Of a DNA stretch of 63,807 nucleotides, positions 20,194-34,514 are shown piece by piece. Source of the stretch: Solirubrobacteraceae bacterium (GTDB lineage: Bacteria > Actinomycetota > Thermoleophilia > Solirubrobacterales > Solirubrobacteraceae); assembly GCA_025934395.1 (NCBI GenBank), contig JAICYC010000011.1, positions 1 to 63,807 on the forward strand. The letters are read 5' to 3'. The notes beneath the pieces were generated by a model. The model made no database searches. It was not told the DNA's origin and was given only the letters and a program-made list of their open reading frames with translations. Numbering within the stretch: the stretch's first letter is position 1; every line of letters begins with the position of its first letter. The position numbers and the translations under genes are program-made.

Positions 20194-20280
20194 CCTCCAG
20201 CGTCTCGTCCCGGGGCCTCCACCGAGCAGCGCGCTCGCCCCCCTCACCCCCTCTGGCCCGGCGGCGCGCCGGACCGGCGC

Positions 20281-20286
20281 TATCTT
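20281..20286 (+). promoter_or_regulatory. -10 element for RibD-C-like gene
   Basis: TATCTT lies 8 bases before GTG 20295 with no ribosome binding site between. Confidence 0.35.
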
Positions 20287-20294
20287 CCCTGCCA

Positions 20295-20864
20295 GTGGAC
20301 GACCCGGGCAGCGGACGTGGCAAGGTCGTGGTGAACAGGTGCATGTCGCTCGACGGGTTCATCGCGGCCCCCGGCCACGCGATGGACTGGGGCGGCGACC
20401 GCCGGCTCGCCGACTTCGTCGACGCTGAGGACTTCCGGGGGGTCGCCGCTGCGACGGGTGCGATGCTGGTGGGCCGGCGGACCTCGGACGTGGGCGCGAG
20501 GATGGCGGCTGAGGACCCGGCGAGCGTCGACTACCCGTTCGCGGGGCCCGTGTTCGTGCTCACGCATCGACCGCCGGAGGCCCCGGCTCCGGGGGTCACC
20601 TACCTGAGCGGCGACATCGGCGACGCGGTCGCGACCGCGCGCCACGCGGCGGGAAGCAGGAACGTGGAGGTCCTCGGCGCCGACGTCGCGGGCCAGTGCC
20701 TGATGCGGGGGCTCGTCGATGAGATCCTGGTCTACGTGCTGCCGGTGCTGCTGGGCGCCGGCGTTCCGTTCTCGGCGCCCGGGCTGCCCAGGATCGACCT
20801 GGAGCCGCTCAGCACCGCGCGGTCGGGCGATGCGACGTTGATGCGCTTCCGCCCGCTCACCTAG
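20295..20864 (+). CDS. dihydrofolate reductase-family protein (RibD C-terminal-like)
   Basis: A 189-residue protein with the RibD reductase/DHFR-like fold. The N-terminus reads VVVNRCMSLDGFIAAPGHAMDWG, followed by TGAMLVGRRTSDVG and the nucleotide-binding stretch VEVLGADVAGQCLMRGLVDEILVYVLPVLLGAG. Similar stand-alone proteins are abundant in actinobacteria and are annotated as dihydrofolate reductases without proof. GTG 20295 is 8 bases after TATCTT. A second RibD-type reductase lies at 26608-27300 beside ribA; this one is separate and has no riboflavin gene next to it. Confidence 0.8.
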   Translation: MDDPGSGRGKVVVNRCMSLDGFIAAPGHAMDWGGDRRLADFVDAEDFRGVAAATGAMLVGRRTSDVGARMAAEDPASVDYPFAGPVFVLTHRPPEAPAPGVTYLSGDIGDAVATARHAAGSRNVEVLGADVAGQCLMRGLVDEILVYVLPVLLGAGVPFSAPGLPRIDLEPLSTARSGDATLMRFRPLT

Positions 20865-21251: not shown

Positions 21252-21785
21252 ATGGGCATGAACAGGGGATCGGAGACCCTCACCCGAGCGCGAAGCGGGC
21301 GACCGCAGGCACGAGCGTTGTCGTTCAGCACCGAGAGCCGTGTGACGATCGCGGCCGACGTGTCCGACGTATGGGCGTATCTGTGCGACGTCCGGCGCTG
21401 GCCCGAGTGGGCACCGACCGTGCTCGAGTGCTCGGTTCGCGGAGGAGCTCCGCTGCAGCCGGGATCGCGGGTGGACCAGCGGGCGAAGGCTGTCCTCGGG
21501 TTCAGCCGCGGCCGCAGCCAGGAGGTCACTCTCCTGCAGGCGCCACACAGCATGGCGTTCGCCGGGCCGATGGGGACCTCCGCGGCGCGCTGGGGAATGG
21601 AGCTCGAGCCGCTGCAGGAGGGGCAGACCGACGCCCTGATGTGGATCGAGGTCGAGCTCGGCGGCATCATGCGCGCGATCCCCGCCGGCCTCCTCCAAGG
21701 CAGGATCCAGCGAGTCAGCGATCGCGAGATGGTGGCGATCAGGTCTGCCGTCGAGTCCGAGACGGCCGGCGGCGCCGGTTCGTGA
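21252..21785 (+). CDS. SRPBCC-family polyketide cyclase/dehydrase-like protein
   Basis: A protein of up to 177 residues with the START/SRPBCC helix-grip fold: SFSTESRVTIAADVSDVWAY, LCDVRRWPEWAPTVLECSV, then alternating strands ending with IQRVSDREMVAIRSAVE. Such proteins bind hydrophobic ligands or catalyse cyclisation; no ligand is predictable. The first 24 residues look dispensable, and starts at ATG 21258 or TTG near 21321 are possible. Its TGA overlaps the ATG of the next gene by one base (TGATG), so the two are translationally coupled. Confidence 0.75.
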   Translation: MGMNRGSETLTRARSGRPQARALSFSTESRVTIAADVSDVWAYLCDVRRWPEWAPTVLECSVRGGAPLQPGSRVDQRAKAVLGFSRGRSQEVTLLQAPHSMAFAGPMGTSAARWGMELEPLQEGQTDALMWIEVELGGIMRAIPAGLLQGRIQRVSDREMVAIRSAVESETAGGAGS

Positions 21786-22668: not shown

Positions 22669-23664
22669 ATGACGTCCGGGCAACTCGACACCCACGCGCA
22701 CGCGTACTGGCTGCGCTCCCCCGGCTGCGGCGAGATCCGGCCGGCCGAGCTCCAGGAGCCCGGGCCGGAGGACGTTCTGGTCCGCACGGTGTGCTCCGGC
22801 GTCAGCCGCGGCACCGAGACCTTGGTGTTCCGGGGCGGCGTGCCGCCGGGCCAGTACGCCGAGATGCGCGCCCCCTTCCAGGAGGGGGACCTTCCAGGCC
22901 CGGTCAAGTACGGCTACCTCAACGTCGGCGCGGTCGAGCGGGGGCCCGCGGAGCTGTGCGGCCGCATGGTCTTCTGCCTGTACCCGCACCAGACCGCCTA
23001 CGTCGTCCCGGCGAGCGCGGTGACGCTCGTGCCCGAGGACGTCCCGCCCGCCCGGGCCGTCCTCGCCGGCACCGTGGAGACCGCCGTCAACGCCCTGTGG
23101 GATGCCGGACCGCTCCTGGGCGACCGGGTGGCGGTCGTGGGTGCGGGGATGGTCGGATGCTGCGTGGCTCGCCTGCTGAGCGGCTTCCCCGCGACGCGGG
23201 TCACGCTCGTGGACGTCGACGCCGCCCGGGCCGAGGTCGCGGCCGCGCTGGGCGTCGACTTCTCGCTGCCCGACGAGGCGGCCGGCGGCCGCGACCTGGT
23301 CGTGCACGCGAGCGCGACCTCAGCCGGACTCCAGCGCTCGCTCGAGCTGCTCGCGCCGGAGGGCACCGTGATCGACCTCAGCTGGTACGGGGACGCAGAG
23401 GTCCGGCTGTCGCTCGGCGGCTCGTTTCACTCCGGCCGCCTGGGGATCCGCGCCAGCCAGGTGGGCACGCTGTCCCCCGCGCGCGCCGGACGGCGCACCA
23501 CCGCGGAGCGATTGGCGCTCGCGCTCGAGCTGCTGCGCGACCCCGCCTTCGACGCGCTCCTCTCGGGGCGGTCCCGGTTCCGCGAGCTGCCGGACGTGAT
23601 GGCCCGCCTCGCCGCGGGCCGCCTGCCGGCGCTCTGCCACACGATCACCTACGACGGGGAGTGA
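22669..23664 (+). CDS. zinc-type alcohol dehydrogenase-like oxidoreductase of the pterin-like cluster
   Basis: A 331-residue medium-chain dehydrogenase/reductase. The N-terminal GroES-like part contains [21 protein letters not shown], and the Rossmann motif is [19 protein letters not shown] near residue 150. The usual catalytic zinc ligands are not all evident, so zinc dependence is uncertain. A TAGGAT box at 22585-22590 would give a leader of about 70 bases. Its TGA overlaps the GTG of the PTPS-like gene (GTGA), so this heads a tightly coupled four-gene operon: dehydrogenase, PTPS-like, glycosyltransferase, methyltransferase. Confidence 0.8.
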
Positions 23665-24065
23665 CCGTGTTCAGCGTGAACGTGCGCGACCACATGATGA
23701 TCGCCCACAGCTTCAGCGGCGAGGTCTTCGGGCCCGCGCAGCGCCTGCACGGCGCGACCTATGTCGTCGACGCCACGTTCCGCCGCGCATCCCTCGATCC
23801 GGACGGGATCGTGGTCGACATCGGCCGTGCAGCGACAGAGCTGCACGCCGTGCTGGCCGAGCTCAACTACCGCAACCTCGACGACGAGCCCGCCCTGGCG
23901 GGGGTGAACACGACGACCGAGGCGCTCGCGCGGGTGGTCGCAGACCGCCTCGCCGAGCGGGTGCACGCGGGTGCGCTGGGCGAGCATGCGCGCGGGCTCG
24001 ACGGCCTGTCGGTCACCCTGCACGAGTCGCACATCGCCTGGGCGAGCTACGAGCGGCCGCTGTGA
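23661..24065 (+). CDS. degenerate 6-pyruvoyl-tetrahydropterin synthase/QueD-like protein
   Basis: A 134-residue T-fold protein. It opens [15 protein letters not shown] and aligns along its length with PTPS/QueD. By eye alignment several key residues are altered: zinc ligands His16 and His30 are kept but the third (HGH) is Ala32; the catalytic Cys position is Ala26; the LDH catalytic pair is Asn69-Tyr70. The final Glu (LHESHIAW) is kept. It may have a different chemistry or only bind a pterin-like molecule. GTG 23661 overlaps the previous stop, and GTG 23667 is an alternative. Its TGA overlaps the next GTG. Confidence 0.7.
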
Positions 24066-25120
24066 GGGCGGTCCATGTCGTGGTGCCCGACGGCATCGAC
24101 GACCCGGCCCGGCCAAGCGGCGGCAACACCTACGACCGGCATCTCTGCCGCGAGCTCGGATCGGTCGGCTGGGCGACTCACGCGCACGCCGTCCCCGGCT
24201 TCTGGGGCCCTCCCGGCGGAGAGTCCTTCGCCGCGCTCGAGGCTGCCGTGCAGCAGATTCCCGACGACGCGATCGTGCTGCTCGACGGGCTGATCGCCTC
24301 GACCGCTCCGGAGGTGCTCGTGCCGCAGGCGCGGAGGCTGCGCCTCGTCGTGCTGGTGCACATGCCGCTGGGGCACCGACCGCTCGACGAGGCGGCCCGG
24401 CGCCGAGAGGGCGCGGTCCTCGCCGCCGCCGCCGCCGTCGTGACGACGAGCGCGTGGGCGCGCCGCCGGCTGCTGGAGCTCTACGGGCTGTGCAGCCGGC
24501 TGGTGCAGGTCGCCGAGCCGGGCGTCGAGGCCGCCGAGCTCGCGCCCGGGACCGCGGCCGGTGGCGCGCTGCTCTGCGTGGGCGTGGTGACCTTCGAGAA
24601 GGGCCAGGACGTTCTGCTCGACGCGCTCGAGACCGTCTCGGGCCCGTCCTGGAGCTGTACGTGCGTGGGCAGCCTCGATTCCGATCCGGAGTTCGTCGAG
24701 GACCTCCGCAGGCGCTTGCGGGACGCCGGGCTGGGCGACCGCGTGTCGTTCACGGGAACGCGCACCGGAGACGATCTCGGCCGCTGCTACGCGTCGGCGG
24801 ACCTGCTGGTGGCGGCATCGCGCGCCGAGACGTACGGCCTGGTCCTCACCGAGGCGCTCGCGCGGGGGCTGCCGGTCCTCGCAGCCGACGTCGGCGGGGT
24901 GGCAGAGGCGCTCGGGCACGGCGCAGCCGGGGACCCACCCGGGTTGCTCGTCGCACCCGAGGACCCGGTGGCGCTCGGCGCGGCGCTGCGCCGCTGGCTG
25001 TCCGATGCGGGGCTGAGGGCCCACCTCCGCCGGGCCGCCCGCGAGCGGCGGGAGTCGCTCCCCCGCTGGTCGACCACAGCATCCGATGTTGCGCGCGTGC
25101 TGGCCGCGGCGGGGCCATGA
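24062..25120 (+). CDS. GT-B glycosyltransferase (family 4 type)
   Basis: A 352-residue glycosyltransferase. The N-terminal acceptor domain has [18 protein letters not shown]. The C-terminal donor domain contains [39 protein letters not shown] and the retaining E-x7-E motif ETYGLVLTE, followed by [16 protein letters not shown]. The sugar donor is unknown. GTG 24062 overlaps the stop of the PTPS-like gene, and its own TGA overlaps the ATG of the methyltransferase (ATGA). It presumably glycosylates the product of, or an intermediate in, this cluster. Confidence 0.85.
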
Positions 25121-25938
25121 ACGCGGGCGTGATCCGCGTCAGTCCGCGGTGGCTCGCGCTGCGGGAGCCTGCCGATGCGGAGGCTCGCGCACGCGATCTC
25201 GTGGAACGCCTCGGGCGAGTGCTCCCGCCGACCGGCCGCCGGGTGATCCACGACCTCGGCTGCGGGACCGGCGCGATGGGCCGCTGGCTGGCGCCGCTGC
25301 TCGCGGGAGAGCAGCACTGGGTCCTGCACGACCGGGACGCCGACCTGCTGGCGCTCGCCGCCGCCGGGCGGCCCCGGGCCGCCGCAGACGGCGCGCCGGT
25401 CACGGTGGAGGCGAGGCGCACCGACCTCGCGGCGGTGCAGGCGCGTGACCTCACCGGGGCGAGCCTGATCACGGCCTCGGCGCTGCTGGACCTGCTCACC
25501 GAGCACGAGCTGGACCGGCTTGCGGGGTTGTGCGCCGCAGCCGGCTGCCCGGCCCTGCTGACCCTGTCGGTCACCGGCCGCGTCGAGATCGCCCCCGCCT
25601 CCCCCCTGGACGGCTGCGTGGCAGCCGCGTTCGATGCCCATCAACGCCGCGCGACGGAGCGCGGGCGGCTGCTCGGGCCCGACGCCGTCGAGTTCGCCGC
25701 GCGTGCGTTGCGCAGTCTCGGCGCGGAGGTCCTCGTGAGGCCCAGCCCCTGGCGCCTCGGACGCGAGCACGGCGGCCTGACCGCGGAGTGGTTCACCGGC
25801 TGGGTCGGTGCAGCGTGCGAGCAGGAGATCGAGCTGTCGGGCCGCTGCGAGCCGTATGCGCGCGAGCGCGTGCGGAAGGCGCGCGCGGGCGAGCTCGAGG
25901 TCGTGGTGGGTCACGCCGACCTGCTGGTGCTCCCGTGA
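25117..25938 (+). CDS. SAM-dependent methyltransferase of the pterin-like cluster
   Basis: A 273-residue protein. The SAM motif is RVIHDLGCGTGAMGRWLAPLL, with DRDADLLAL after it and LITASALLDLLTEHELDRL at the motif IV position. The C-terminal part (PWRLGREHGGLTAEWFTGWV) is distinctive but unknown to me. It is the last gene of the forward operon and overlaps the glycosyltransferase by 4 bases. It ends 10 bases before the stop of ribA on the other strand, so the two operons meet tail to tail. Confidence 0.85.
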   Translation: MNAGVIRVSPRWLALREPADAEARARDLVERLGRVLPPTGRRVIHDLGCGTGAMGRWLAPLLAGEQHWVLHDRDADLLALAAAGRPRAAADGAPVTVEARRTDLAAVQARDLTGASLITASALLDLLTEHELDRLAGLCAAAGCPALLTLSVTGRVEIAPASPLDGCVAAAFDAHQRRATERGRLLGPDAVEFAARALRSLGAEVLVRPSPWRLGREHGGLTAEWFTGWVGAACEQEIELSGRCEPYARERVRKARAGELEVVVGHADLLVLP

Positions 25939-25948
25939 GCCCCCAGCC

Positions 25949-26596
25949 CTACCCCGCTTGCAGCGGGATGTCCAGCGTGTGCGCTCCGCGCTGCACCTTC
26001 GTCGCCAGATAGCGGGCGTTCGCGTCGGACAGGTGCACGCCGGTGGGCACCCGTGCGCTCACGGCGACGCCGTAGCGCCCGAGCTGCCTGGCCTTGTCGG
26101 GGTTGTTCGAGAGCAGCGCGACGCGTGGGACTCCCAGCGCGCGCAGCATCTGCGCGGCGACGAGGTAGCTGCGCTCGTCCTCGCGGTGACCGAGCGCGAG
26201 GTTGGCCTCGTAGGTGTCCAGCCCGGTGTCCTGGAGCGCGTACGCGTCGAGCTTGGCGTAGAGGCCGATGCCCCGCCCCTCCTGCCGCAGATACAGCAGG
26301 AACCCGCCGCGCTCGGCGATCCGCTCGACGGCCTCGCGCAGCTGGGCGCCGCAGTCGCAGCGTTGGCTCCCGAACACGTCGCCGGTGAGGCACTCGCTGT
26401 GGGGCCGGACGAGCGGCTCGCCCAGGCGCCCTGCGGACGCCACCGGGGCGGCGCGGTCACCGAGACCGAAGGCGACGTGCTCCCGGCCGTCGACGAGGCC
26501 GTCGAAGGTGAACACACGGGCGATCGTGGCGTACCCGTCCGAGAAGCGCAGCGGGGCCGAGACCTGCGTGCGGATGGTCGCGTCGAGCGCCGGCAT
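25949..26596 (-). CDS. ribA: GTP cyclohydrolase II
   Basis: A 215-residue GTP cyclohydrolase II, the enzyme that opens GTP to 2,5-diamino-6-ribosylamino-4(3H)-pyrimidinone 5'-phosphate. The zinc motif SECLTGDVFGSQRCDCGAQL and the catalytic stretch LRQEGRGIGLYAKL are intact. YEANLALGHREDERSYLVAAQML and LLSNNPDKARQL complete the fold. It stands alone, without the DHBP synthase domain of bifunctional RibBA. ATG 26596 lies 11 bases after the stop of the RibD-type reductase gene. No ribE/ribH is adjacent, so it may serve a special pathway rather than riboflavin synthesis. Confidence 0.9.
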   Translation of the reverse strand: MPALDATIRTQVSAPLRFSDGYATIARVFTFDGLVDGREHVAFGLGDRAAPVASAGRLGEPLVRPHSECLTGDVFGSQRCDCGAQLREAVERIAERGGFLLYLRQEGRGIGLYAKLDAYALQDTGLDTYEANLALGHREDERSYLVAAQMLRALGVPRVALLSNNPDKARQLGRYGVAVSARVPTGVHLSDANARYLATKVQRGAHTLDIPLQAG

Positions 26597-26607
26597 CGTC
26601 GTGTGGG

Positions 26608-27300
26608 TCAGCGGGCTTCGAACCGCGCCGAGAGGGCGTAGCGCAGCAGCACCACGTCGCCGATCTGCCGCACCTCGGCGAGCTTCGCGCGCCGACCGGG
26701 ATTCCACGGGAAGTGGCCGTCGCTCACGAAGCGCGTGGCTCGGGAGTCGCCGACGAACACGGGAGCGACGACGAGCTGCAGCTCGTCCACGAGGTCGTCG
26801 GCGAGGAACTGGGTGTGGACCGTGCCCCCGCCCTCGACCATCAGCTGCCCCACGCCGCGCTCACCGAGGTCCTCGGTGAGGCGACGCATCTTCACGGTTC
26901 GGCCGCCGTCGACGACGGTCGCCACGGTGCCGAGTCGCGAGCGGGCCTCGACCACGCGCGGGGTCGCGCAGTAGACGAGCTTCTCGCTGTCGCCGGCGGT
27001 GAAGAAGTCGGCCCCGGAGTCGAGCTCCATCCTCTCGGTCACGGTGACCTTCATCGGGGATGGCGGGAGGCCACGCGCGGCGCGCGCGTCGCGCCGTTCC
27101 TGCGAACGCACCAGCAGCCGCGGGTTGTCGATCCGGACCGTCGCCGCCCCCACCAGGATCGCGTCGGAGGACGCGCGCACCGCGTCGACCCTGTCGAAGT
27201 CCGCGTCGTTCGACAGCTCCAGGCGTCGCGGCGCGGCGCTGCCGAGGTAGCCGTCGATCGACATGCCGCAGCTCAACAGAACGTAGGGACGATCAGGCAT
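26608..27300 (-). CDS. RibD-type reductase domain protein
   Basis: A 230-residue RibD C-terminal (pyrimidine reductase/DHFR-like) protein. It opens with PYVLLSCGMSIDGYLGSAAP, has AILVGAATVRIDNPRLLVR and VGQLMVEGGGTVHTQFLADDLVDEL, and ends with GDVVLLRYAL. The deaminase half of RibD is absent. In riboflavin synthesis the reductase acts on the product made from RibA's product by the deaminase. ATG 27300 has GGGAGGG 8 bases upstream; the in-frame GTG 27309 is too close to it. It overlaps the end of the membrane-protein gene by 8 bases and precedes ribA, so all are co-transcribed. Confidence 0.85.
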   Translation of the reverse strand: MPDRPYVLLSCGMSIDGYLGSAAPRRLELSNDADFDRVDAVRASSDAILVGAATVRIDNPRLLVRSQERRDARAARGLPPSPMKVTVTERMELDSGADFFTAGDSEKLVYCATPRVVEARSRLGTVATVVDGGRTVKMRRLTEDLGERGVGQLMVEGGGTVHTQFLADDLVDELQLVVAPVFVGDSRATRFVSDGHFPWNPGRRAKLAEVRQIGDVVLLRYALSARFEAR

Positions 27301-28249
27301 GGGTCGCACCCTCCCGGAGAGCCGGCGGCTTGCGCGCGGCGGCGCGGCCGCCGCGGAGCCATGCGACGAGCAGGAGGGCGGCGCCCGGGAGGCTCGCGAC
27401 GAGCACCATCACGCCGTAGACGACCGCGGTCGCGACGCCTCGCCCGGCACCGAGGCCGGCCGCAGCGAACACCCATGCCGCCACACCCTCGCGCGGCCCC
27501 CAGCCGCCGACGTTGGGGAGCACCATCGCCATCACTGCGAGCAACGCTATCGGCAGCAGCCGCAACAGCGGTGCGGTGGTCCCTGCGCTCCGCGCGGCGA
27601 CGATGAACGTGATCGCGTAGCCGGCGACGACGAGCGCGGACACGAGCGAGATCCCCAGCCACGCCCGGCGGGCGAGCAGCGCGTCTCGGATGTCGGAGCC
27701 CGCCGCGCTGCGCGCGCGCCCCCACGCAGACCTCGCATCGGGCCGCAACCTCGTCAGGAGCACGATCGCGACGGTCGCGACGGCGAGCGCGATCGCCACC
27801 GGCGGCATCGCCGACTGCAGCGGCGACGGCAGGGCGAGGAGCACGACCACCGTGAGCAGGACCTGCACCACCTGGCCGGCCGCCCGCTCCCAGACTACGG
27901 ACCGCAGTCCACGCCCCACATCCCGCATGGCGCGGCCGTGGCTCACCCCGCGGTGGACGTCCCCGACGATTCCGCCGGGCAGCGTGACGTTGAGGAACAG
28001 CGAGCGGTAGTAGGCGCCCACGGCGCTCGGCAGCGAGAGCTCCACGCCGAGGCCACGGGCGACGACCGTCCACCTCCACGCGCAGCCCAGCGTGGTGAGC
28101 GCCACGATGCCCGTCCCCACGGCGAGCGCCCGGCCGTCGACCGAGCGGACCCCGTCGAGGAACGGGCCGGTGCCCAGGCGCCAGACGAGGGCGCCGAGGA
28201 CGATGGCGGGCGCCAGGACGCGACCGTATGTCCACAGCGACCTGGTCAC
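27293..28249 (-). CDS. UPF0104/lysylphosphatidylglycerol synthase-type membrane protein
   Basis: A 318-residue protein with about eight hydrophobic helices. It carries the family's marks AYYRSLFLNVTLPGGIVGDVHRGV near residue 90 and AMVLPNVGGWGPREGVAAWVF near 250. Related membrane domains flip or transfer lipid head groups (MprF N-terminal domain) and are often adjacent to glycosyltransferases. GTG 28249 lies 19 bases after the fused phosphatidyltransferase gene. It is the middle gene of the reverse operon and suggests that the pathway product is lipid linked or exported. Confidence 0.8.
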   Translation of the reverse strand: MTRSLWTYGRVLAPAIVLGALVWRLGTGPFLDGVRSVDGRALAVGTGIVALTTLGCAWRWTVVARGLGVELSLPSAVGAYYRSLFLNVTLPGGIVGDVHRGVSHGRAMRDVGRGLRSVVWERAAGQVVQVLLTVVVLLALPSPLQSAMPPVAIALAVATVAIVLLTRLRPDARSAWGRARSAAGSDIRDALLARRAWLGISLVSALVVAGYAITFIVAARSAGTTAPLLRLLPIALLAVMAMVLPNVGGWGPREGVAAWVFAAAGLGAGRGVATAVVYGVMVLVASLPGAALLLVAWLRGGRAAARKPPALREGATHA

Positions 28250-28268
28250 ACCCGCACGAGCTCCATCG

Positions 28269-30686
28269 CTAGCGCCCCGCCGGCTTCGAGTCGAACGCGG
28301 TCAGGAACCCGTCGCGAAAATCGCTCGCCCGCATGACGGGGGCCTGCGGGCTGGGAAGCAGGCCCTTCTCCCAGCCCCAGCCGCTGATCCGCTTGAAGAC
28401 GGATGGGTCGTGGGCGATGATCGAGATCGGCACGTCGCGGTTCGCCTTCGTCCCGCTCACGATCGACAGCGGCTGCTCGTCTCCGACCACGATCAGCACG
28501 AGGTTCTTCCTGCCGTAGTGCTGCACGTAGGAGATCAGCACGTTCAGCGAGTATTCGAGGGACCGGGCGTAGGCCGCCTTCACCTGGTCGGGATGCCACC
28601 AGAACGAGCTCGGCCTGGCGTACACGGGCAGCCGGTTGTAGATCGAGCCGTTGCCGACCTCGCTCCACGGGATCTGCTCCGGGATGCGGTTCCACGGCAT
28701 GTGGCTGGAGACCGTGTCCACCTCCGCGAACAGGGGGCGGTGCGGCTTGGAGAGCTCGAGTCGCTGCAGCGCCGAGAACATGTACTGGTCGGGCATCGGC
28801 GCGTAGTTGAAACCGGGGCCGCGATACCCCAGCGCGCGACGTTCGTAGAGCTTGTCGTAGTGGTAGAACGAGGACCCTTCGGGCCAGTCCCGGTCGTCGG
28901 CGGGAGCGAAGTTGATCGTCCGCCACCCCGCCCGGTTGAACGCGTCGGTGAGGTTGAAGCGGTTGCTGGCGACCAGCTGGTGGTAGCGCCGCTCGTTGTT
29001 GGCCCAGACCCCTGACTGCAGCGTCGAGTGCCCCAGCCAGCTCATACCGCCGAACCCCGGTGCGTCCACGAACGCGCTGCGGGCCGAGAAGCCAGCCGTC
29101 TGCAGCTGCCTGGTTCCCTTCTCGAGCAGCGTGTCGATCGCCGGCGAGAAGGAGGAGCCCTGCACCGACACCTGACCGTAGGACTCCACGAAGGTCAGCA
29201 GAACATCCTTGCCGCGCAGCCCGGTCAGCAGTTGGCTGCCCGGGGTGAAGCGGAAGCGGTCGGCGCGGATCTGCTTCGCGAACACCCCCTCGTCGTGGAC
29301 GGCCGCCTCCACCGTGCGGACCTCGTAGGCGACGTAGCCGGCGGTGCTCGTCGAAGCGATCGGGGAGCCGGACAGGAGCTGGGCACCGGAGAGCGCGAGC
29401 ACCAGCCACGACGCCCCGAGCCCCGCGACCACCTTCAGCGACCCGCCACGATGCTCGGCGGCGACGCGCAGCAGCCGGAACGTCGACAGGGTCGTGAGCA
29501 CGAGCACGGCCACGATCAGCGCGACGCCGCCGGCGATCAGGAGGTTGGCCTCGCTGCGGCCGAGCGCGTCGCGCAGGGTTTCCACGCCCGACCCGATGTC
29601 GCCGAGATCGCCGATCGGTTCGAACGCCCGGTTGAAGGTCGAGAAGAACCCGATGTCGAGGACCTTCAGCACCACCACCAAGCCGAGCAGCGGCCCGGCG
29701 ATCGCGGCCAGGATCCGCCGCATCGCCTTCGGCAGCAGGATCGCCACGGCGATCAGCGCGAGGCCGTCGAGCGGGACCCGCAGGAAGGCCGCCGGCGTGA
29801 GGTCTTCGGGCCGATCGGGCGCGACGAGGGCCGCCCACACGATCAGCAGCGCGAGGACGGTGAGCGTGGTGGCGATACGTGCACGGAGTCGGGCGGATAC
29901 CGGACCTCGGAGAGCGCGGGTCTCGTTCCGGACCTCGGACCCGTGGAGCGCTCCCCCTCGGTGCATCCACAGCCACAACACGTCGCGACCGAACGACTCT
30001 GCAACCAGCAGGAGTGCCACGAGGAGCCCGGCGCGCGCCACCGACCCCGGCAGGACGGCTGCGGCCGCGACCGTGAGCACGATCCCCAGCGTCGCGGTGA
30101 CGACCTTGCGCCAGTCGCGCGCAGGAAGCGGCGCCCGCATCCACGAGAGCCTCCATCCGGCTGCGAGGAACACGTAGCGCGCAGCGCCGATCGCCAGCAC
30201 CCACGCACCCAGCGAGCGGGCGACGTACACGCTGAGGACGAGGATCAGGAACGCATCGACCTCGCCGTCGAACTGCGCGCCGAGCGTCGCCGAGGTACTG
30301 GTGCGTCGGGCGACGTAGCCATCCACGTAGTCGAGGGCGAGCGCGAGCGCGCTGATTCCCACCAGCAGGGCGACCGGGATCGGCCGCGCGACCGAGTCCG
30401 CAACGAGAGCGCCGGCTGCGACGGCGAACGACGCGCGCGTCAGGGTGACCGCGTTGGCGGCGCCCAGGCCCTCGCATCGATGGCGCCACAGGCCTCCTGC
30501 GAGCACCAGGTTCACGAGCATCGCACCGGCCAGCCCTGCCACCCAGCCCCCGGCGCCGAGGCCGACGGTTGCGGCGATCCCGGCCAGCAGCAGCACCTGG
30601 GCGGCCAGCCCGACCGCGGGACCTGCTGCAACCGCCCTCCTCGCGCGCCGGCGGGGCTGGCGCAGCGATTGCGCGCTCACTGCCAT
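28269..30686 (-). CDS. CDP-alcohol phosphatidyltransferase fused to sulfatase/LTA-synthase-like domain
   Basis: An 805-residue membrane protein. Residues about 60-230 form a CDP-alcohol phosphatidyltransferase domain with the full catalytic signature D-x2-DG-x2-AR-x8-G-x3-D-x3-D in DYVDGYVARRTSTSATLGAQ and the following FDGEVDA. Several more helices follow to about residue 450. Residues about 480-800 look like an alkaline-phosphatase-superfamily sulfatase/lipoteichoic-acid-synthase domain (LLTFVESYGQVSVQG, EVDTVSSHMPWNR, LVLIVVGDEQPLSIVSG). It could both make a phosphodiester lipid head and transfer or cleave it outside the membrane. It heads the reverse operon. Confidence 0.8.
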   Translation of the reverse strand: MAVSAQSLRQPRRRARRAVAAGPAVGLAAQVLLLAGIAATVGLGAGGWVAGLAGAMLVNLVLAGGLWRHRCEGLGAANAVTLTRASFAVAAGALVADSVARPIPVALLVGISALALALDYVDGYVARRTSTSATLGAQFDGEVDAFLILVLSVYVARSLGAWVLAIGAARYVFLAAGWRLSWMRAPLPARDWRKVVTATLGIVLTVAAAAVLPGSVARAGLLVALLLVAESFGRDVLWLWMHRGGALHGSEVRNETRALRGPVSARLRARIATTLTVLALLIVWAALVAPDRPEDLTPAAFLRVPLDGLALIAVAILLPKAMRRILAAIAGPLLGLVVVLKVLDIGFFSTFNRAFEPIGDLGDIGSGVETLRDALGRSEANLLIAGGVALIVAVLVLTTLSTFRLLRVAAEHRGGSLKVVAGLGASWLVLALSGAQLLSGSPIASTSTAGYVAYEVRTVEAAVHDEGVFAKQIRADRFRFTPGSQLLTGLRGKDVLLTFVESYGQVSVQGSSFSPAIDTLLEKGTRQLQTAGFSARSAFVDAPGFGGMSWLGHSTLQSGVWANNERRYHQLVASNRFNLTDAFNRAGWRTINFAPADDRDWPEGSSFYHYDKLYERRALGYRGPGFNYAPMPDQYMFSALQRLELSKPHRPLFAEVDTVSSHMPWNRIPEQIPWSEVGNGSIYNRLPVYARPSSFWWHPDQVKAAYARSLEYSLNVLISYVQHYGRKNLVLIVVGDEQPLSIVSGTKANRDVPISIIAHDPSVFKRISGWGWEKGLLPSPQAPVMRASDFRDGFLTAFDSKPAGR

Positions 30687-30798
30687 ATCCCTCTATGACG
30701 CTGGGGGGATGGGAAGCCTTCCCATCGCAAAGCTGACAACCTGGGCGCATGGACGGCGGCGCCGAGGCAGCGGTGGGTGGCCGCCGCGCGGAGCGGCG

Positions 30799-31560
30799 GT
30801 GAAGCAGGACGAGCGCGCTCCGTTCGTGCGGGCCCTGCAGCGAGCCCGCGTCTCGGCGTTTCCGCGCGGCGAGTTCGTCGATCAGGAGGGGTTCATGGAT
30901 GCCGGAGAGATCCGGGCGCTCGCCGAGCGCGCGGGGATCGCCGCCGGCGTTGCGGTGCTGGACCTGTGCTGCGGGATCGGGGGGCCGGGTCGCTTCCTCA
31001 CCCGGGAGTGGGGCTGCAGCTACCTCGGGATCGACTACAGCGCCAGCGCCATCCAGATCGCACGGCGGAGCGCCGGCGAGCTTCCATGTCGCTTCGAGGT
31101 CGCGCGGATCCCTCCGGTCCCGCCGGGCCCGTTCGAGGTGGTGCTGCTGCTCGAGACCATGCTGGCCTTCCCCGAGAAGGAGTCGCTGCTCGGCGAGATC
31201 TCCCACGCGCTCTCAACCGGCGGGAGGTTCGCGTGCACCGTCGAAGCCGGCGAGCCGCTCACCGATGCGGAGCGACGCGAGATGCCCGACGCCGACACCG
31301 TGTGGCTCGTTCCGATGGCCGCGATGCTCGCGCACCTGGAGGCCGTCGGGCTAGAGGTCCGCTGGGAGCAGGACTGCACCGCCTCCCACATGGCCAGGGC
31401 GCAGTCGCTGACCGAGGCCTTCGCCGCCGACGCCGCGCAGATCACCGCGCAGATCGGCGACCGGGCTCTGGAGGAGCTGCTCCGCGCCCATCGGCTCTGG
31501 GTCGACTGGCTGGGGACCGGACGCGTGCGCAAGGTCGCGCTGGTCGCGGAGAAGGCGTAG
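30799..31560 (+). CDS. class I SAM-dependent methyltransferase
   Basis: A 253-residue methyltransferase. Motif I is VAVLDLCCGIGGPGRFLTREWG, followed by CSYLGIDYSASAIQIARRSA, VVLLLETMLAFPEKESLLGE and GGRFACTVEAGEPLT. The GIGGPGR form of the loop recalls sterol/tocopherol-type and glycine/sarcosine methyltransferases. GTG 30799 follows GGAGCGGCG, a plausible ribosome binding site. The gene is divergent from the phosphatidyltransferase fusion, 112 bases away, and is the third methyltransferase bordering this cluster. Its participation is likely but inferred. Confidence 0.8.
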   Translation: MKQDERAPFVRALQRARVSAFPRGEFVDQEGFMDAGEIRALAERAGIAAGVAVLDLCCGIGGPGRFLTREWGCSYLGIDYSASAIQIARRSAGELPCRFEVARIPPVPPGPFEVVLLLETMLAFPEKESLLGEISHALSTGGRFACTVEAGEPLTDAERREMPDADTVWLVPMAAMLAHLEAVGLEVRWEQDCTASHMARAQSLTEAFAADAAQITAQIGDRALEELLRAHRLWVDWLGTGRVRKVALVAEKA

Positions 31561-32076: not shown

Positions 32077-32925
32077 TCAGCCCTGAAGCGACGCCAACGG
32101 CACCCCGATGATGTCGAGTCGGCGGGTGAGACCGCCGAGCGCGAACTCGCGAATTGCCTCGGTGGTCGCCCCGATCGCCCCGAAGCCGTGGTCTGAGCCC
32201 GTGTCCGGCGGTGCGAGGGACGCGGCGACCGAGGGCAGCAGATCGCGCAGGGCCTGACGGAGCACCTCCGCGGTTTCCGGCATCGCCTTGACCGTTTCGC
32301 GCAGGAACCAGACGCCATAGCCGATGTGCCGTGTCTCGTCGTGGTGGATCTTCGAGTAGCCCTCGACGAAACCCGGAAGCAGCTGCTCGGCGCTGAGGTG
32401 GTCGGTCGTGAACTTGAAGGTGGTCAGGCCGAGGGTTCCCTCCAGGATCAGGTGGTAGATCGTGACGAAGCGGACCTTCGTGGCGAGGTTCGCGGGTTCG
32501 GCGAGAAGCTGCTCGTGGGCTTGGACGAGCTGCTCGTCGAAGATGTGGCGGAAGGCGTCCGAGACGTTCTCACGGGCGCGCTCCACGTGGGCCGCGATCA
32601 GGTCGGGGGCAGCGACGACCTCGTCCTGGAAGCGCGCGTAGAACTGCATGTGCCGGGCCTCGTCGACCTGCTGCGTGGAGAGGAACGTCGCCTCCTCCTC
32701 GCTTCCGTGGGCACCGACGAGGCCGCTGAACTTCGTCGTGATGCGCTCCTCGGCGACCATCAGCGAGGACAGCACGTAGAAGATCAGGTCGCGGTCCTCA
32801 CCGCTCATCGCCGCCCACTGCTCTCGGTCGCGGTCGAGGTCGATCAGGAACGGCGACCACTGCGACTCCTCCCAGCGCCGGTAGAGCGTCTGGGGGTCGT
32901 TGAGCTGGATGTCGTGGTCGCTCAT
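32077..32925 (-). CDS. R2-like ligand-binding oxidase / RNR small-subunit-like protein
   Basis: A 282-residue ferritin-like diiron protein. The six expected metal ligands can be read as Glu in VAEERIT (59 or 60), Glu89 and His92 (VDEARH), Glu162 (LILEG), Glu197 and His200 (DETRH). Tyr157 lies five residues before Glu162, which matches the spacing of the crosslinked Tyr in R2lox, while the matching Val position appears to be Ile or Thr; this needs structural alignment. No large ribonucleotide reductase subunit is nearby, favouring an oxidase or R2lox role over ribonucleotide reduction. Confidence 0.8.
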   Translation of the reverse strand: MSDHDIQLNDPQTLYRRWEESQWSPFLIDLDRDREQWAAMSGEDRDLIFYVLSSLMVAEERITTKFSGLVGAHGSEEEATFLSTQQVDEARHMQFYARFQDEVVAAPDLIAAHVERARENVSDAFRHIFDEQLVQAHEQLLAEPANLATKVRFVTIYHLILEGTLGLTTFKFTTDHLSAEQLLPGFVEGYSKIHHDETRHIGYGVWFLRETVKAMPETAEVLRQALRDLLPSVAASLAPPDTGSDHGFGAIGATTEAIREFALGGLTRRLDIIGVPLASLQG

Positions 32926-32975
32926 CGGGCGTCGAGGGTCCTCGTCGGGGGCGCAGCAGGCGGTGGGGCCCCGGG

Positions 32976-34514
32976 CTACTTGAGCGAGAACCTCACCTTG
33001 ACGACCCTCCCGAGAGCCTTGCCCGCCAAGGTCGTCTCTCGCACGACGACCAGGTAGGTGCCGGGCTTGACGCTCGCGGGGAGCTGGATATCGATCGTGC
33101 CGTGGCCGCCGTGCCTGCGCTTGATCGTCAGGCGTCCCGTCGCAAGCACCCTGTGTCCCTTCAGCGGCAGGATCTTGGCGACGAACTTCCGGGGCTTGGA
33201 GGTCGCCACGACGACGGGGACGAAGCGAGCGCTCCTGCCGGTGACCGTGACGACCTTGTAGATCGTCGCCGTCGCACCCCCGAGGTTGGCCTTGACCGCG
33301 TTCGAGCCGGTGGGCGGGCCGGGCGGCGGCGCGCCGCCGGCCGTGGCGGGCGGCGCGGTGGAGGCGATCGGGCCGGGCGGCGGGGTGCTCGGCGGCGTGG
33401 GGATCGTGTTGGCCGCCGCAGTGATCGCAAGCGCTCCGCTTTCGCCGCCCACCGCTGCATGCTGGGCGTCGTAGGCGGCCTCTGCGCGCCAGTTCTCGGT
33501 GGCCAGCGCCCCTTCGGCCGGCTGGTCGTAGAAGTTGGTGCCGTCGACCGACGTGAAGATCTCGCCGCCGCTGCCGGCCGTCACCTCCGCCCCGCCCTGG
33601 GAGCTGATGTCGTACAGGTCCCCTTTGACCGCCGCGTCGTTCGGAAACGAGGCAGCGGCGGCGAACGTGCCCCCGTCGGTCGAGCGCTCCAGACAGAGCG
33701 TCCCGCAGCCGAACCCGTCGACGGTGTTGCCCACCACCCAGATCCGGTTCGGGCTGAGGGGGTCCTGGGCGATGCGGGGCGTGCCGTTGAAGCTGTTGAC
33801 CGTGTCGCTGTTGACCAGCGAGCCGCTCGGTGAGCCTTCGGCGACGGCATCGTCGCTTGCGTAGAGCCGCCCGAAGTTGCGGGCGACGAACACGGCGTGA
33901 TCGGGGTTCGCGGGGAGGAAGCTCGCATCGGTCATGTCCTGCGCGGACGCCTCGCCCTGCATTGCGCAGGTCACGCTGTTCTTGTTGATCTCGGTGAACG
34001 TCGCGCCGGCGTTGGTCGAGCGCAGGATCGTCGAGTTGTCCCCGAGCAGGAACACGTCCGATTCGCCGGCCCACTGGACGGCGTTGAGCTCCGTCTCGGC
34101 GACGGGGGTCGACGCGACGGAGCATTCGGTTCGGGTCGTCGGCGATCCGATTTTGCTCCAATTCACGCCGCCGTCGGTCGAGCGCCAGACGTGCCCGTTG
34201 TGGGTGACGGCGAAGCCGACGAGCCCTACCGTCCCGGGGCCGCCTGGTTTGGAGACGGGCTGGAACGCCATGTCGACGATTTCCTCGCCGGCTTCGATGC
34301 CGGTGGCGTTCGTGAACCCTGCGCCGTTGAAGTACGCGACCGTGCCTGCGCTCGTGGCGTACCAGAAGCGGGTGGGCGATTGGTAGACGATCGAGGTGAT
34401 CGTGGCCGCGGTGCCGCTGTTGAGCGGCGTCCAGATGCTCGCCGCCTGGGCCGTTGCCGATCCCGCGCCGAGCACAACCGCCGTGGTGATGACTAGCGCG
34501 ATCCTGCGGAGCAC
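32976..34514 (-). CDS. secreted beta-propeller (BNR/Ycf48-like) protein
   Basis: A 512-residue exported protein. The signal peptide is LRRIALVITTAVVLGAGSAT with cleavage after AQA. Residues about 26-370 contain repeated propeller motifs (VWRSTDGGVNWSKI, LRSTNAGATFTEI, LERSTDGGTFAAA, IFTSVDGTNFYDQ). A Pro/Gly-rich linker at about 385-425 leads to a C-terminal beta domain (FVAKILPLKGHRVLATGRL, VKPGTYLVVVRET) that may bind cell wall. GTG 34514 was chosen for its GGGGGA ribosome binding site. The frame stays open upstream but would bury the signal peptide. Confidence 0.8.
   Translation of the reverse strand: MLRRIALVITTAVVLGAGSATAQAASIWTPLNSGTAATITSIVYQSPTRFWYATSAGTVAYFNGAGFTNATGIEAGEEIVDMAFQPVSKPGGPGTVGLVGFAVTHNGHVWRSTDGGVNWSKIGSPTTRTECSVASTPVAETELNAVQWAGESDVFLLGDNSTILRSTNAGATFTEINKNSVTCAMQGEASAQDMTDASFLPANPDHAVFVARNFGRLYASDDAVAEGSPSGSLVNSDTVNSFNGTPRIAQDPLSPNRIWVVGNTVDGFGCGTLCLERSTDGGTFAAAASFPNDAAVKGDLYDISSQGGAEVTAGSGGEIFTSVDGTNFYDQPAEGALATENWRAEAAYDAQHAAVGGESGALAITAAANTIPTPPSTPPPGPIASTAPPATAGGAPPPGPPTGSNAVKANLGGATATIYKVVTVTGRSARFVPVVVATSKPRKFVAKILPLKGHRVLATGRLTIKRRHGGHGTIDIQLPASVKPGTYLVVVRETTLAGKALGRVVKVRFSLK

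Follow-up and report, generated by a model that had tools for sequence, protein, structure and literature searches.

The window analysed here, the whole 63,807-nucleotide stretch of contig JAICYC010000011.1 (assembly GCA_025934395.1) of a Solirubrobacteraceae bacterium, carries eight genes in two convergent operons, which combine a GTP cyclohydrolase II (RibA) and a RibD-type reductase with a protein resembling 6-pyruvoyltetrahydropterin synthase (PTPS) and with genes for glycosyl, methyl and lipid head-group transfer. The forward operon (22669-25938) comprises genes for a dehydrogenase, the PTPS-like protein, a family 4 glycosyltransferase (GT4) and a methyltransferase, whose junctions are four-base overlaps (GTGA, GTGA, and ATGA). 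The reverse operon (30686-25949) codes for a CDP-alcohol phosphotransferase-sulfatase fusion, a UPF0104 protein, the reductase and RibA; the reductase gene starts while still inside the UPF0104 gene, in its final 17 bases. The stop codons of the two operons are separated by 10 bases. A preliminary description of this DNA had reported the eight genes, the converging operons, the three overlaps and the fusion; its coordinates, frames and domains agree with ours. The starts of the PTPS-like (23661), methyltransferase (25117) and RibA (26596) genes were chosen from the overlaps and from alignments, the list of open reading frames having longer versions. The genes are as follows:

22669..23664, plus strand: medium-chain dehydrogenase/reductase (MDR)-fold dehydrogenase, core gene 1; ADH_zinc_N under its cut-off, relatives annotated 'zinc-binding alcohol dehydrogenase'
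23661..24065, plus strand: PTPS-like protein, SCO6650 ortholog, core gene 2; PF01242 5e-24, PDB 3d7j E 1.2e-62
24062..25120, plus strand: GT4 glycosyltransferase, core gene 3; PF00534 5e-31
25117..25938, plus strand: class I S-adenosylmethionine (SAM) methyltransferase, core gene 4; Methyltransf_25 26.7 bits, a weak match (cut-off 27)
25949..26596, minus strand: second GTP cyclohydrolase II (RibA), Tyr105-type; PF00925 6.5e-54, Cys cluster and Asp-x-Arg retained
26608..27309, minus strand: stand-alone RibD_C reductase, archaeal ArfC-like; PF01872 2.6e-40, no deaminase domain
27293..28249, minus strand: LPG_synthase_TM/UPF0104 flippase-like membrane protein; PF03706 1.5e-27
28269..30686, minus strand: fusion of a CDP-alcohol phosphotransferase (about residues 1-250) and a membrane sulfatase-like domain (about residues 250-805); CDP-OH_P_transf match, and Sulfatase E 0.003, under cut-off

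This gene set is conserved. With the PTPS-like gene as the marker, a single genome of each species was scanned, which gave at least 439 relatives among at least 590 pattern matches. The 80 best relatives, which carry actinobacterial titles and are non-independent, being the nearest to the window by choice, were read with 10-kb flanks where the contig permitted; the family profiles derive from matches, in the very loci counted, to window queries and plasmid genes. Among these 80 loci, and in brackets among the 66 flanked by 6.5 kb or more at each end, the dehydrogenase was found in 80 (66), GT4 in 79 (66), UPF0104 in 78 (66), the methyltransferase in 74 (64), RibA in 72 (61, thus missing from five), the CDP-alcohol phosphotransferase in 67 (59), a creatininase in 48 (44), the RibD-type reductase in 32 (23) and the sulfatase in 13 (12). 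The dehydrogenase, PTPS and GT4 genes are contiguous in 76 of the 80. Of the 101 genomes sampled from the large-genome genus g50, probably Streptomyces, 41 have the marker gene. The Streptomyces loci read combine the cassette with a creatininase gene and with a RibA whose Tyr105 is replaced, mostly by Met. In the deep-branching family f18, where 25 of 39 genomes have the PTPS gene, both the reductase and the dehydrogenase gene are found no more than about 1.5 kb from it in 20/20 loci, and GT4 in 19/20. As a control, 22 other PTPS loci were hand-picked from weaker matches, with flanks mostly of 6 kb. The dehydrogenase, GT4, CDP-alcohol phosphotransferase and UPF0104 occur in none of the 20 whose PTPS keeps Cys and HGH within these mostly 6-kb flanks, while both Cys-less control loci (L153 and L169) turned out to be cassettes. 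Three of the 20 have a RibA about 4.6 kb away, as in the canonical Cys-type PTPS loci L158-L160 of family f46, from which the other cassette genes are absent. The grouping of the cassette genes is far beyond chance, and loss of the Cys marks the cassette PTPS subfamily within the sampled loci. Trees of the dehydrogenase and of the PTPS-like protein from 42 loci contain the same three deep groups, with the warning that the PTPS tree joins long branches. Restricted unsupervised clustering of additional neighbour genes gained little.

The cassette is also found on plasmids. A search of plasmid proteins matched 29 records, of which 18 were read, with families assigned by profile. In 18/18 the dehydrogenase gene precedes the PTPS gene (in L149 a small gene intervenes); a methyltransferase follows downstream in 17 (by annotation or profile) and GT4 directly downstream in 12, the CDP-alcohol phosphotransferase is present in 11 and RibA in four. 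The bacterial hosts are the actinobacteria Streptomyces, Microbacterium, and Arthrobacter, and further Methylosinus, Agrobacterium, Neorhizobium, Peteryoungia, Palleronia, a Rhodobacteraceae strain, and Thiodictyon; eight plasmids belong to the four haloarchaeal genera Haloarcula, Halomicrococcus, Halobellus, and Natronorubrum. The cassette is widespread and sometimes plasmid-borne in actinobacteria, proteobacteria, and haloarchaea. As regards phages, none of the 47 viral-contig stretches that matched a pattern encodes a relative.

The host genome carries a complete ribD-ribE-ribBA-ribH operon on contig C150 (L118), comprising another GTP cyclohydrolase II, and six RibD_C matches in all; therefore, the window ribA and the reductase gene are extra copies. 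The preliminary description had stated that ribE and ribH are absent, which holds for the window and not for the genome; RibB, RibE, RibH, and the deaminase are likewise not among the eight cassette genes. For GTP cyclohydrolase I the genome gave a partial match only, on contig C118 (profile positions 131-177 of 179), in a search that did not extend to FolE2. The PTPS-like gene was found in none of the 23 other genomes of the same genus, several of them incomplete, and in one of 16 relatives from the order, which points to its recent gain or patchy loss. In that relative, L142 is colinear with the window from 22.7 to 31.6 kb, a second methyltransferase gene included. The possibility of a contaminant contig was considered and is unsupported: a protein encoded at 32080-33000 (minus strand) of the window has matches of 80% and 78% in two genomes of the genus, and its presence in 35/41 genomes, the host's own included, is a sign of a native contig.

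The closest structural relative of the window PTPS-like protein is 3d7j (E 1.2e-62), the structure of SCO6650 from Streptomyces coelicolor, of which it is an ortholog. SCO6650 is reportedly devoid of both zinc and PTPS activity. In an alignment with rat PTPS the window protein shows other residues at the catalytic Cys, at the Asp-His pair, and at a single zinc-binding His out of three, the second His of HGH being Ala; the roles of these residues, and of the pterin-anchoring Glu, are those that we take to apply to PTPS in general. In a 28-row alignment of 26 cassette members and two proteins from outside, the catalytic Cys is absent from 26/26 cassette rows, while the two outside proteins have it. 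Among the cassette rows, the HxH zinc pair is kept only in the haloarchaeal L131 and in the f18 row L133; the Glu is invariant (28/28). The window protein scores 37.2 bits against the QueD NCBIfam equivalog, far under the cut-off of 89.25. Judged by its residues, the cassette protein does not function as a PTPS, and the subfamily to which it belongs accompanies GTP cyclohydrolases of types II and III; hence, the pairing of a PTPS with GTP cyclohydrolase II, which the preliminary description considered odd, becomes less so. With canonical PTPS and QueD (COG0720 PTPS-I, II, and III; PMC5041015) the cassette protein shares the T-fold family and the Glu anchor, and differs from them in having neither catalytic Cys nor Asp-His, an incomplete zinc site, and GTP cyclohydrolase II- or III-type partners.

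The entry step is suggested by RibA. The window enzyme has a Cys cluster, a Tyr, and DER, all visible in the sequence and in its alignment to 2bz0, which we take to be, respectively, the metal ligands, the catalytic Tyr, and the catalytic Asp and Arg; its TIGR00505 score is 185.9 bits, under the 205.85 cut-off. Position 105 (E. coli numbering) was surveyed in 78 RibA rows, the genome's own housekeeping RibBA included. Tyr occupies it in 28, i.e., in 27 cassette rows and in the housekeeping RibBA, and none of the 28 has a creatininase neighbour; all 49 rows with Met (38), His (9), Cys (1), or Leu (1) have one. SCO6655 of S. coelicolor is reported to have Met at this position, which reportedly makes the enzyme stop at the formylated product FAPy. 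In Sinorhizobium and Brucella, deformylation of FAPy by a creatininase-family enzyme, BrbF, is established (PMC9478397). The window has a Tyr-type RibA and the creatininase is absent among the genes read, which is consistent with a one-enzyme route to 2,5-diamino-6-ribosylamino-4(3H)-pyrimidinone 5'-phosphate (DARPP). In three Haloarcula plasmids with no RibA (L144, L145, and L146), the operon slot before the dehydrogenase gene is filled by GTP cyclohydrolase III, recognised in L144 by PF05165 (3.4e-81) and in the other two by annotation and 85-98% identity to L144. As this enzyme belongs to another family than RibA, it gives independent support to the opening of the GTP ring, which we regard as a well-supported candidate for the entry step of the cassette. 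Near the cassettes of two further Haloarcula plasmids (L131 and L148, of one layout) lie a creatininase and a protein with a weak sulfatase-domain match.

The second step would be performed by the reductase. The window protein has PF01872 only and no deaminase domain, unlike the two-domain bacterial RibD, while the housekeeping RibD on C150 has both. The best matches of the reductase family profile are 6p8c, named as a DARPP reductase, and 2azn. RibA is fused to the reductase in L046, L047, L069, L112, and L153. The last of these, a deep-branching cassette of family f8, has an HHH motif and no Cys in its PTPS-like protein, and its fused RibA-RibD has the Tyr.

The best match of the GT4 family profile is Tll1590, followed by MshA- and PimB/PimA-type enzymes. 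The CDP-alcohol phosphotransferase motif DGxxARx8GxxxDxxxD is intact (D119, D122-G, A126-R, G136, D140, and D144) in 13/13 rows, one of them archaeal, and the nearest solved relatives use CDP-lipids or CDP-choline. Its fusion with the sulfatase-like domain was found in the window, L034, and L052, and a single open reading frame of L142 matches both families. A GTP-derived product serving as a lipid head group is plausible. For the dehydrogenase, no BchC structure is among the 50 matches listed in either of two fold searches, which proves nothing.

The eight genes are best explained as a cassette starting from GTP and leading through DARPP and a ribityl compound to a pterin-like product that is methylated, glycosylated, and often lipid-linked, a reading that we favour with moderate confidence. 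RibA would open the guanine ring of GTP to give DARPP, and in other lineages this job would fall to a FAPy-forming cyclohydrolase with a creatininase-family deformylase, or to the archaeal GTP cyclohydrolase III. The stand-alone reductase likely converts DARPP to the ribitylamino compound. The dehydrogenase may then oxidise one of the ribityl hydroxyls. The oxidised compound may be bound by the conserved Glu of the T-fold PTPS-like protein, which may aid closure of this compound to, or its rearrangement as, a pterin. A reduction at C1' and a subsequent oxidation at C2' would be the equivalent of the Amadori step of GTP cyclohydrolase I, and therefore the cassette could dispense with that enzyme in making a phosphate of the dihydroneopterin type. 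Decoration of the product would fall to the methyltransferase and GT4. In most of the lineages read, its transfer to a CDP-lipid by the CDP-alcohol phosphotransferase and its flipping by the UPF0104 protein would follow, and the phospho-head group, once exposed, would be the target of the sulfatase-like domain in those cassettes that have one. The identity of the product and the lipid link are conjectural. Of the preliminary description, which had proposed a GTP-derived pyrimidine or pteridine that is methylated, glycosylated, and perhaps lipid-linked, the observation is confirmed and the broad interpretation is well founded: the extra gene copies and the conserved gene set give good support to a dedicated GTP-derived pathway apart from riboflavin, the co-occurrence across actinobacteria that it proposed to examine is conserved, and the window ribA is not the only GTP cyclohydrolase II gene of the genome. 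Its interpretation as a whole is partly supported, methyl and glycosyl transfer being likely from the gene content and the lipid link conjectural, with the phosphotransferase in 67/80 nearest and 11/18 plasmid loci.

Several observations weigh against the scheme. We know of no recognised product, substrate, or activity for the role of any cassette member. The association between residue 105 and the creatininase is broken by the L047 RibA, which has Ser and no creatininase, and the 49 rows with Met, His, Cys, or Leu fall into a single clade of the RibA tree, so that they represent one evolutionary event with no statistical weight alone. The creatininase of the Streptomyces cassettes is nearer to MftE than to ArfB by NCBIfam, under every cut-off, and two more distant BrbF homologs gave no complementation in PMC9478397. 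The window reductase reaches 139.1 bits on the DARPP-reductase equivalog TIGR01508, under its 186.45 cut-off, and the family profile also strongly matches ordinary RibD. RibA is absent from eight of the 80 loci, some on short contigs, and only four of the 18 plasmid loci read have it; where it is lacking, housekeeping enzymes would have to supply the DARPP. The likeness of the dehydrogenase to TarJ/polyol dehydrogenases is a tie among many MDR enzymes. The sulfatase-like domain matches LtaS-type structures weakly (4uop, E 0.0027), and its predicted model is unusable (pLDDT 48.8). Finally, the CDP-alcohol phosphotransferase is absent from 7/66 long-flank loci, and therefore the lipid link is not obligatory.

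The pterin ring itself is the point at which the nearest competing explanation departs. The product could remain a ribityl-diaminopyrimidine, which the PTPS-like protein only binds or shapes, with methylation, glycosylation, and lipid transfer unchanged. RibA and the ArfC-like reductase are the only enzymes with established chemistry, and the PTPS-like protein has none of the catalytic residues; its invariant Glu, the pterin anchor of this fold, and its tight pairing with the dehydrogenase, with three deep groups shared by their trees, nonetheless suggest a pterin-like ligand and a catalytic role. We consider this explanation credible but rather unlikely. It would resemble toxoflavin-type pathways, in which RibA/RibD-like enzymes are diverted from riboflavin, as is proposed for the cassette; we know of no PTPS-like, CDP-alcohol phosphotransferase, or flippase genes there. 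A different objection is that a phospholipid head-group operon and an operon for a GTP-derived small molecule simply adjoin, by chance or by assembly of a mobile island. The seven long-flank loci with no CDP-alcohol phosphotransferase agree with this, as does the f18 locus L133, which even with longer flanks shows the reductase, dehydrogenase, PTPS, and GT4 only. However, the phosphotransferase, a sulfatase-type protein, and the core co-occur in Actinomycetota (the sulfatase in 12/66 long-flank loci), and also in Agrobacterium, Peteryoungia, Thiodictyon, and, with a weaker sulfatase match, Haloarcula, in differing gene orders, which makes two unrelated sets improbable.

The membership of RibA and of the RibD-type reductase in riboflavin-pathway families could also indicate that the cassette supplies additional riboflavin or serves the secretion of flavins, a role put forward for Sinorhizobium RibBA (PMC9478397). 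The genome already has its full riboflavin operon, and riboflavin supply was rejected for this reason; moreover, the eight genes comprise neither RibE, RibH, RibB, nor the deaminase, and the PTPS-like protein, GT4, and CDP-alcohol phosphotransferase are without a known place in flavin synthesis. Such a role is very improbable. The archaeal ArfA-ArfB-ArfC series passes through FAPy, deformylation, DARPP, and reduction before any deamination. These intermediates are shared by the BrbF route (PMC9478397), in which a creatininase-family protein serves deformylation, as we propose for the non-Tyr cassettes. Those routes feed flavins and F420, while the cassette enzymes instead adjoin the dehydrogenase, PTPS-like, GT4, methyltransferase, and lipid genes. 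The window differs from the Streptomyces cassettes of the SCO6650/SCO6655 type (Spoonamore et al. 2006) in the Tyr of its RibA, in having no creatininase neighbour, and in the RibD-type reductase alongside.

The scheme from GTP to a pterin-like product, if true, would give a function to SCO6650, solved in structure but without an assigned role, and to SCO6655, reportedly an odd GTP cyclohydrolase, and would define a metabolite common to bacteria and archaea, with the PTPS-like gene as its marker. Through the Tyr/creatininase and RibA/GTP cyclohydrolase III substitutions, the entry chemistry is open to direct testing. A search of the open full-text literature found no account of the cassette; subscription papers on SCO6650 and SCO6655, outside that scope, may mention the neighbourhood. 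A bolder and unlikely extension is a pterin route independent of GTP cyclohydrolase I in bacteria and haloarchaea, in which GTP cyclohydrolase II (or GTP cyclohydrolase III with a deformylase) would act together with an ArfC-like reductase, a dehydrogenase of the polyol type, and a T-fold protein devoid of PTPS catalytic residues to yield a methylated, glycosylated dihydropterin, mounted on a phospholipid and flipped outward as a membrane-anchored redox cofactor. The proteobacterial loci of Thiodictyon, Agrobacterium, and Peteryoungia also carry cytochrome b561 beside the cassette (L114, 12528-13085; L116, 13014-13547; L130, 13058-13585), which hints at a redox role of the product and is cited for the redox-cofactor reading.

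A few genes upstream of the forward operon, at 20244-20861 (plus strand), the window encodes another RibD_C/DHFR-fold protein (PF01872 1.1e-13), with no sign of cassette membership. Three other genes adjoin the cassette as possible or probable accessory members:

21252..21785, plus strand: polyketide_cyc2/SRPBCC protein, possible accessory member; PF10604 1.3e-15, cassette-adjoining relative in L052 only, none in L142
21863..22576, plus strand: UbiE-like methyltransferase, possible accessory member; cassette-adjoining relative in L052 only, none in L142; start unsettled
30781..31560, plus strand: second SAM methyltransferase (by Pfam), probable accessory member in the nearest loci; start unsettled; relatives adjoin the cassette in L034, L052, and L142

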